This document shows positions 24,643 through 24,986 of a stretch of DNA of 36,611 nt, piece after piece. A model generated the notes under the pieces. It was not told the origin of the DNA, searched no databases, and saw only the letters and a list, made by a program, of their open reading frames with translations. The DNA comes from Candidatus Saccharimonadota bacterium (GTDB lineage Bacteria > Patescibacteriota > Saccharimonadia > Saccharimonadales > AQU-01): assembly GCA_018499905.2 (NCBI GenBank), contig JAHBAU020000019.1, forward strand, positions 1 to 36,611, written 5' to 3'. Made by a program: the position numbers and the translations under genes. The stretch's first letter is position 1, and the number at the start of each line of letters is the position of its first letter.

Positions 24643-24729
24643 GCCGGGGTGGCGGAATTGGTAGACGCGCTGGACTCAAAATCCAGTGGTAGCAATATCG
24701 TGAGGGTTCAAGTCCCTCCCCCGGCACCA
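24643..24729 (+). tRNA. tRNA-Leu (anticodon CAA)
   Basis: 87 nt with encoded CCA (24727-24729). Acceptor GCCGGGG pairs with CCCCGGC; anticodon stem CTGGA/TCCAG, loop CTCAAAA with CAA at 24677-24679 (reads UUG). Long class II variable arm and T-loop TTCAAGT. It is divergent from the sortase gene, 58 nt from its start. A cassette copying its 3' end follows directly. Confidence 0.96.
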
Positions 24730-24916
24730 CATTAAATACCCGACCATTCCTGGTCGGTTATTTAATGAGGAGGGGAAGAAAGCCAACTGCTTGGCTTTCG
24801 TGGGACTTGAACGGCCGCAGCGATGTTTGCCGCTACTCGGCAAACCGCGAGGCGGGGTCGCGAGCGAAAAGCAAAGCTTTTCGACTTGTGACTCAAAAGT
24901 CCCTCCCCCGGCACCA
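24730..24916 (+). repeat. tRNA-Leu 3' flanking cassette
   Basis: Contains a long hairpin (ATTAAATA/TATTTAAT plus CCGACCA/TGGTCGG, 24731-24766) and a perfect 9-bp hairpin GAAAGCCAA/TTGGCTTTC (24778-24799). Next is GGGACTTGAAC (24802-24812), the exact reverse complement of T-arm bases 24706-24716, then hairpins GTTTGCCG/CGGCAAAC (24825-24845) and CGAAAAGC/GCTTTTCG (24865-24883). It ends in AAGTCCCTCCCCCGGCACCA (24897-24916), identical to the last 20 nt of the tRNA (24710-24729). The AAGCCAA-N4-TTGGCTT core is shared with the tRNA-Glu cassette. No credible gene. Function unknown. Confidence 0.8.
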
Positions 24917-24931
24917 TATGATCCAGATATG

Positions 24932-24957
24932 CTAGATTCTAAGAGTCTAGTTTTATC
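24932..24957 (+). terminator. Intrinsic terminator after the tRNA-Leu cassette
   Basis: CTAGATT/AGTCTAG stem (24932-24950, with a G-U) is followed by TTTTATCTTTT. The hairpin directly after the tRNA (24731-24766) has no T-run, so the tRNA-Leu transcript probably includes the whole cassette and stops here. Confidence 0.65.
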
Positions 24958-24986
24958 TTTTGTGTGATGTTTTGAGACAGACGCCA

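Follow-up and report, generated by a model that had tools for sequence, protein, structure and literature searches.

Just downstream of the transfer RNA (tRNA) gene for tRNA-Leu(CAA) in a 36,611-nt stretch of a Candidatus Saccharimonadota genome (assembly GCA_018499905.2, contig JAHBAU020000019.1) lies a short cassette in which a small folded core is set among inverted and direct copies of parts of the tRNA. From sequence comparisons, we consider it probable, at roughly 60%, that this cassette is a member of a Saccharibacteria family of non-autonomous mobile elements that has a small structured core and spares the gene it targets. The whole stretch, called the window here, is contig 13 of a 1.09-Mb genome in 48 contigs. 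The family is previously undescribed; in the literature, excluding subscription papers and preprints, we found no description of the element.

The tRNA-Leu(CAA) cassette

The features of the locus, all on the forward strand of the window, are as follows.

24643-24729, +: intact tRNA-Leu(CAA) (ARAGORN and Rfam RF00005)
24740-24757, +: terminator-like hairpin directly 3' of tRNA-Leu, with tail TTATTTAATG and arms reaching over about 24727-24770
24778-24799, +: outer hairpin GAAAGCCAACTGCTTGGCTTTC of subfamily C
24802-24812, +: inverted copy ("splint") of the tRNA-Leu T-loop/T-stem, an exact inverted repeat
24813-24892, +: core, with helix P3, GGGG linker, and helix P4 (24857-24892), placed by folds, cassette similarity, and model R2
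24897-24916, +: direct copy of the tRNA-Leu 3' end (3' part of the T-loop, T-stem, acceptor strand, CCA), an exact 20-nt repeat at a spacing of 187
24931-24951, +: second terminator-like hairpin, 3' of the copied tRNA-Leu 3' end

The intact gene is thus followed by a hairpin, the reverse complement of its T-arm, two further hairpins, and an exact copy of its last 20 nt. The 11-nt arms GTTCAAGTCCC (24706-24716) and GGGACTTGAAC (24802-24812) are exactly complementary, and AAGTCCCTCCCCCGGCACCA at 24897-24916 repeats the tRNA 3' end 187 bp downstream. Both repeats had been reported in a preliminary description of this DNA and proved exact, and the hairpins that it listed were recovered in a fold of 24730-24960 at −108.8 kcal/mol (z = −9.6 against dinucleotide shuffles). 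That description was right to place a terminator beyond the cassette (24931-24951) but wrong that none directly follows the tRNA, as the hairpin at 24740-24757 does so. Within the core, position 24884 in helix P4 is an unpaired A, 8 nt ahead of the core end.

Over 118 nt, the Leu cassette shares 85% identity with the one beside tRNA-Glu(TTC) on contig C12 of the same genome. An independent covariance model, R2, matches it at 24705-24892 (E = 1.7e-4 with filters off), and in this fit, the T-arm of the tRNA itself is taken as one P2 strand. The sequence AGCCAACTGCTTGGCT from its outer hairpin recurs at the same tRNA-Glu(TTC), after tRNA-Gly(CCC) at locus L034, and at locus L141. The window Leu copy is a divergent family member of what we term subfamily C, which comprises this copy, the tRNA-Glu(TTC) copy, L141, and, on the evidence of its hairpin, L034, and in which the hairpin is placed outside the inverted T-arm.

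A conserved fold in the core

The core is ~85-115 nt long, gene-free, and strongly folded. Its motif GAGRCGGGGTCG led to more copies in the same genome, near tRNA-Glu(CTC), tRNA-Glu(TTC), tRNA-His, tRNA-Trp, and the transfer-messenger RNA (tmRNA). A covariance model built from seven of the genome's own copies (R1) returned 10 matches there with E below 1e-4. In an alignment of 92 sequences, two-sided compensatory changes were found in 28 of 30 base pairs, 95.7% of cells were paired, and the covariation score was 0.645 vs. at most 0.105 with the partners slid; because the structure guided this alignment, its covariation counts are biased towards that structure. A MAFFT alignment of seven sequences, made without structure, already held 15 two-sided pairs. 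One G-U pair was retained as G-U in 68 of 87 sequences. Judged from these alignments, the core is a structured RNA or single-stranded DNA whose fold has been kept through many compensatory changes.

The consensus reads GGUGAG [P2] GCAAGG [P3] GGGG [P4] GUGAC. There are two main types: type A cores have CCGGA..GAGGC in P3 and a longer P4, and type B cores have a P3 closed by GAAAC/GUUUC and a short P4. Across 214 distinct copies, 162 start with GGTGAG or GGTGAA and 97 end with GTGAC. Where the P4 of type A folds with a single bulge, that bulge is an A located 7-9 nt from the core end (43 of 44 folds), which is not the case in type B. No Rfam 15 family matched the core; in a scan with E-values up to 5, core loci returned tRNA and tmRNA only, and at gathering and E-value thresholds, Rfam gave nothing beyond tRNA, tmRNA, RNase P, and sub-threshold chance matches. 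By eye, the 5' half of the core (GGUGAR..GCAAGG) at all loci resembles J11/12-J12/11 of RNase P RNA, the part that binds the tRNA T-loop.

Targets and insertion rule

Most copies sit beside tRNA genes: 167 of 214 lie within 600 bp of a tRNA, and 161 of these 167 are on its strand. The 161 same-strand copies divide into 87 on the 5' side (median distance 62 bp) and 74 on the 3' side (median 77 bp), and they occur at >30 isoacceptors. The preliminary description's claim that the arrangement recurs at unrelated tRNAs (the second presumably being tRNA-Glu(CTC), 2136-2210) holds, with chance excluded. So does its expectation of cassettes at other tRNA loci, whose absence it had set beforehand as counting against it: by hand counts from coordinates, cores lie near 8 of the 36 tRNA genes detected in the window's genome plus tmRNA, and in the single-contig relative G036, 18 of 20 core matches lie beside 13 of 34 tRNA genes. 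Overall, the targets are nearly every tRNA type and probably tmRNA too.

The flanks of the core fit the neighboring tRNA as two halves in 123 of 161 cases, compared to 8 of 161 with a non-cognate tRNA. The core breaks a partial copy of the tRNA, or of another small-RNA gene, after a G on the sense strand, usually in the T-loop, and also in the D-loop, the anticodon loop, or other cores. Examples, with the bracketed bases replaced by TGAG...GTGAC, are GGG[TT]CGAGTCC, TAACG[GT]TAGGAC, TAGAG[CA]CCGG, and AGAG[CG]CGTCC. Insertion therefore entails a net loss of 2 nt, and the net length change is constant in ~107 of the 123, although the GGT with which the core starts leaves the end point uncertain by a few bases. 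Nested copies obey the same rule at CGGG[GT]CGCC of other cores (L316 and L323; less cleanly L320, L333, L335, and L058).

On the 3' side, the order is intact tRNA, terminator-like hairpin, inverted tRNA 3' half, short direct piece, core, and direct 3' half. The inverted half often begins with TGG, the reverse complement of CCA, and the direct half is often followed by CCA and a second terminator-like hairpin. On the 5' side, the order is tRNA 5' part, core, short direct piece, inverted piece, promoter-like stretch, and intact tRNA. At L339, a 70-nt exact duplication around the core covers the promoter and the tRNA 5' part. The intact RNA gene adjoins the core because the segment from the insertion point to the gene end, with its terminator or promoter, is duplicated, and we infer that the 3'-side and 5'-side arrangements can be drawn as circular permutations of one junction. 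An inverted copy scoring at least 10 lies across the junction at 43 of 50 3'-side loci (44 at any position; 2 of 50 with shuffled inserts) and at 19 of 56 5'-side loci (23 at any position; 1 of 56 shuffled). By its sequence, this inverted copy can pair with the flanks on both sides of the core.

At 55 of 62 3'-side loci, vs. 0 of 62 shuffled, a terminator-like hairpin lies between the tRNA and the cassette. Such a hairpin follows the tRNA both there and in the window, so the earlier suggestion of a cassette probably carried on the tRNA transcript finds no support; in addition, in many cases the cassette is upstream of its tRNA.

Some loci stand apart from the common tRNA arrangement. The genome's own tmRNA (L018, 976-1371; L025, 1501-1618) has a type A core after it, and between the two lie a terminator-like hairpin and an inverted stretch resembling a T-arm. 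At L048, L053, L055, L076, L098, and L122, cores stand beside a recurrent RNA-like gene, GAGCC..AGGGGGTGGGCACC..GGCTC..ACACCCTTCAACCCACC, which probably contains a pseudoknot and, at the gathering threshold, matches no Rfam family. The two nested cores of L316 (G000 C42, ~15.7-15.9 kb) come after a stretch ending in CCCGACCA and a terminator-like hairpin, with no tRNA or Rfam family detected at them. At L117 (642-729, genome G020), a tRNA-Gly(GCC), complete with acceptor and CCA, has a core in its T-loop and no intact copy alongside; an intact tRNA-Gly(GCC) exists elsewhere in that genome.

Within the window, the tRNA-Glu(CTC) gene has a cassette on each side.

1952-1968, +: copy of the tRNA-Glu(CTC) 5' end, GGCCCCATCTTCTAACG, broken in the D-loop
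1967-2071, +: full type A core (P2, P3, P4) on the 5' side of tRNA-Glu(CTC) (R2, 77 bits, E = 2.8e-15)
2077-2089, +: inverted copy of the tRNA-Glu D-arm, across the insertion point
2136-2210, +: intact tRNA-Glu(CTC)
2264-2275, +: inverted copy of the tRNA-Glu T-arm in the 3'-side cassette with diverged core (from sequence; without R1 or R2 match)
2361-2382, +: imperfect direct copy of the tRNA-Glu 3' end, TCGATTCCCCTTAGGTTCACCA (from sequence)

The 3' cassette (2211-2382) retains the design, with a core too diverged for the R1 and R2 models, and may be a further subfamily.

Distribution and mobility

R1 matches occurred in 48 of 100 genomes searched within the same order, with a patchy 0 to 36 copies per genome. 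A phylum-wide draw of 380 genomes yielded matches in 12, of which 10 belonged to the same order; of the other two, one was from the same class and carried its core upstream of a tRNA, and one had a fragment located at the edge of a contig. Contigs with matches in public genomes were mostly titled Candidatus Saccharibacteria. Four loci titled Candidatus Parcubacteria 0813_bin17 (L125, L127, L158, and L202) have the same matches as genome G072 of the window's order, and the title is probably a misassignment. Among viral contigs, none of 10 pattern matches had covariance support. The element is thus almost confined to Saccharibacteria.

Cores cluster by genome, and their flanks track the local tRNA. 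The nearest neighbor of a core was in the same genome in 42 of 136 cases, compared to a shuffled mean of 7.8 and maximum of 19, and it was at the same isoacceptor in another genome in 4 cases, compared to a shuffled mean of 2.4. Occupancy also varied at tRNA-Pro(TGG) within one family: no core was detected in G083 and G058, a 3' core only was present in G068 and G005, a 5' core only in G090 and G095, and cores on both sides in G076, G039, and G099. Orthology in this comparison rests on tRNA identity, not on flanking gene order, and at L102, a distal core upstream of tRNA-Pro(GGG) was assigned to the TGG array. Tandem exact units are also present. With its dispersed and nested copies, polymorphic occupancy, and no gene of its own, the family belongs to the broad kind of small non-autonomous mobile repeats, and we conclude from these patterns that it is apparently mobile or recently mobile.

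Several observations weigh against this reading. We searched for reverse transcriptase (RT), IS110, and Y1 proteins as movers, and none tracks core copy number. RVT_1 is absent from the window's genome, from G016, G068, G072, G076, G079, G084, and G099, and from most high-copy genomes; an IS110 transposase was found in only 1 of 23 genomes, a zero-copy one; and Y1 transposases occur in 5 of 12 high-copy vs. 2 of 11 zero-copy genomes. The Y1 genes bear flanking hairpins of their own, and there was one core among 16 Y1 loci. Many copies are degenerate, no version bearing an open reading frame (ORF) was seen, and no actual transposition or excision product was observed. Finally, the inverted copy at 3'-side loci was closer to the intact tRNA than to the interrupted copy in 41 vs. 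5 cases, a comparison weakened by the boundary ambiguity. Because it matches the intact tRNA better, we do not claim selection for pairing in cis.

In genome G079, two RAYT-like Y1 genes (L339, 811-1491; L340, 871-1479) each lie between inverted hairpin repeats of their own that are distinct from the core.

Proposed explanation and alternatives

Under a non-autonomous mobile element, the folded RNA or single-stranded DNA would be the form acted on, and its arms would pair with the target, fixing both the orientation and the 2-nt rule. The chemistry would be supplied by a protein of the cell or of another element. Fold-back repair would then join the core, the inverted copy, and the duplicated gene end, keeping the tRNA alive. 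Action on RNA or a folded strand is favored because of the sense-strand bias and the conserved fold, and the duplication that contains a promoter shows that copying at the DNA level takes part. A stronger version, which we hold only tentatively and think is rather doubtful, is a new class of mobile element in which a folded RNA pairs with tRNA genes and insertion, whether protein- or RNA-level, is coupled to duplicating and inverting the target in a programmed way, with the essential RNA gene always surviving.

Alternatively, the cassettes could be retained for a function in regulating or processing tRNA, as small RNAs or cis elements, with the local tRNA likeness reflecting a need to pair. 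RNA-like covariation, including the retained G-U pair (68 of 87), same-strand bias, an inverted copy complementary to the intact tRNA, and cassettes at tRNA-Arg(TCT) in three families (L063, L082, and L107) would all suit such a role. However, the cassettes take various positions (on the 5' or the 3' side; in the T-, D-, or anticodon loop; within other cores), roughly half of the related genomes have no match, occupancy differs between close relatives, a terminator-like hairpin separates the tRNA from the 3' cassette, and cores group by genome rather than tRNA type. We regard regulation as improbable. Somewhat less probable still is a miniature group II-like intron that reverse splices into structured RNAs with the inverted copy as an external exon-binding guide. 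Group II introns start with GUGYG, end with AY, and have a bulged A at 7-8 nt; the cores show GTGAG or GTGAA at the start (162 of 214 with the preceding G), often GAC at the end (GTGAC in 97 of 214), and the A at 7-9 nt in most type A folds, ~8 nt from the end (43 of 44 single P4 bulges), but not in type B. Precise sense-strand insertion is a further likeness to these introns and their degenerate mini-intron forms. By contrast, the window's genome has no RT or group II intron proteins, the alignment has no recognizable domain V, Rfam gives no intron match, 2 nt are lost instead of an exact insertion, and the duplicated segment can take in the promoter. Removing the core restores a recognizable tRNA in only 5 of 214 copies, so exons are not generally restored. 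By the same count, the cores are not spliced tRNA introns in general.

Replication accidents would account for the forward-inverted-forward order, with turns at the terminator hairpin and a short variable-region hairpin, if the cassettes were small inverted triplications of the tandem-inversion-duplication type at tRNA and terminator hairpins and the core a passenger. Inverted triplications formed via template switching have been described (PMC4689423, PMC10766183). Yet a conserved, covarying insert at unrelated loci, its fixed 2-nt rule, and nested insertions are left unexplained, and we consider such an origin unlikely. Remnants of tyrosine-recombinase integrative elements with attachment sites in tRNA T-loops are disfavored and, to us, very improbable. 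Crossover in the T-loop and a copied tRNA 3' end are typical of these elements, and the cassettes share the T-loop as main site, the duplicated 3' end (the exact 20 nt at tRNA-Leu), and a tRNA that is still functional. Still, the cassettes are <200 bp, with no ORF between the repeats and no room for an integrase gene; the same element occurs at >30 isoacceptors; insertions also occur on the 5' side, in the anticodon loop or D-loop, and within other cores; and an inverted tRNA copy is not expected.

Two other known systems are similar in part. REP/BIME and other small palindromic repeats moved by RAYT (Y1) proteins are likewise short, gene-free, and folded, have many intergenic copies, and are mobilized in trans, as we propose for the core. 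Unlike them, the core sits inside tRNA-gene copies in one orientation with a duplicated gene end, and the RAYT-like genes found here lie between different hairpins without clearly tracking copy number. The bridge or seek RNAs of IS110/IS1111 are also structured RNAs with target-matching arms, but we found no accompanying IS110 transposase, and the arms of the core match one strand only, on both sides. The element behaves as a small non-autonomous mobile repeat, yet it lacks the defining features of every specific family tested.

Significance

tRNA genes are essential and are common landing sites for mobile DNA, and to our knowledge, little is known of mobile elements in Patescibacteria. Because the rule found here is strict (sense strand, after a G, 2 nt lost), the mechanism can be tested directly. 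For annotation, the element would explain the pseudo-tRNA fragments and inverted tRNA copies around Saccharibacteria tRNA genes. If our reading is true, a gene-free element of <200 bp that inserts in a fixed orientation and leaves almost any tRNA whole would represent a new solution to the problem of landing in essential genes.
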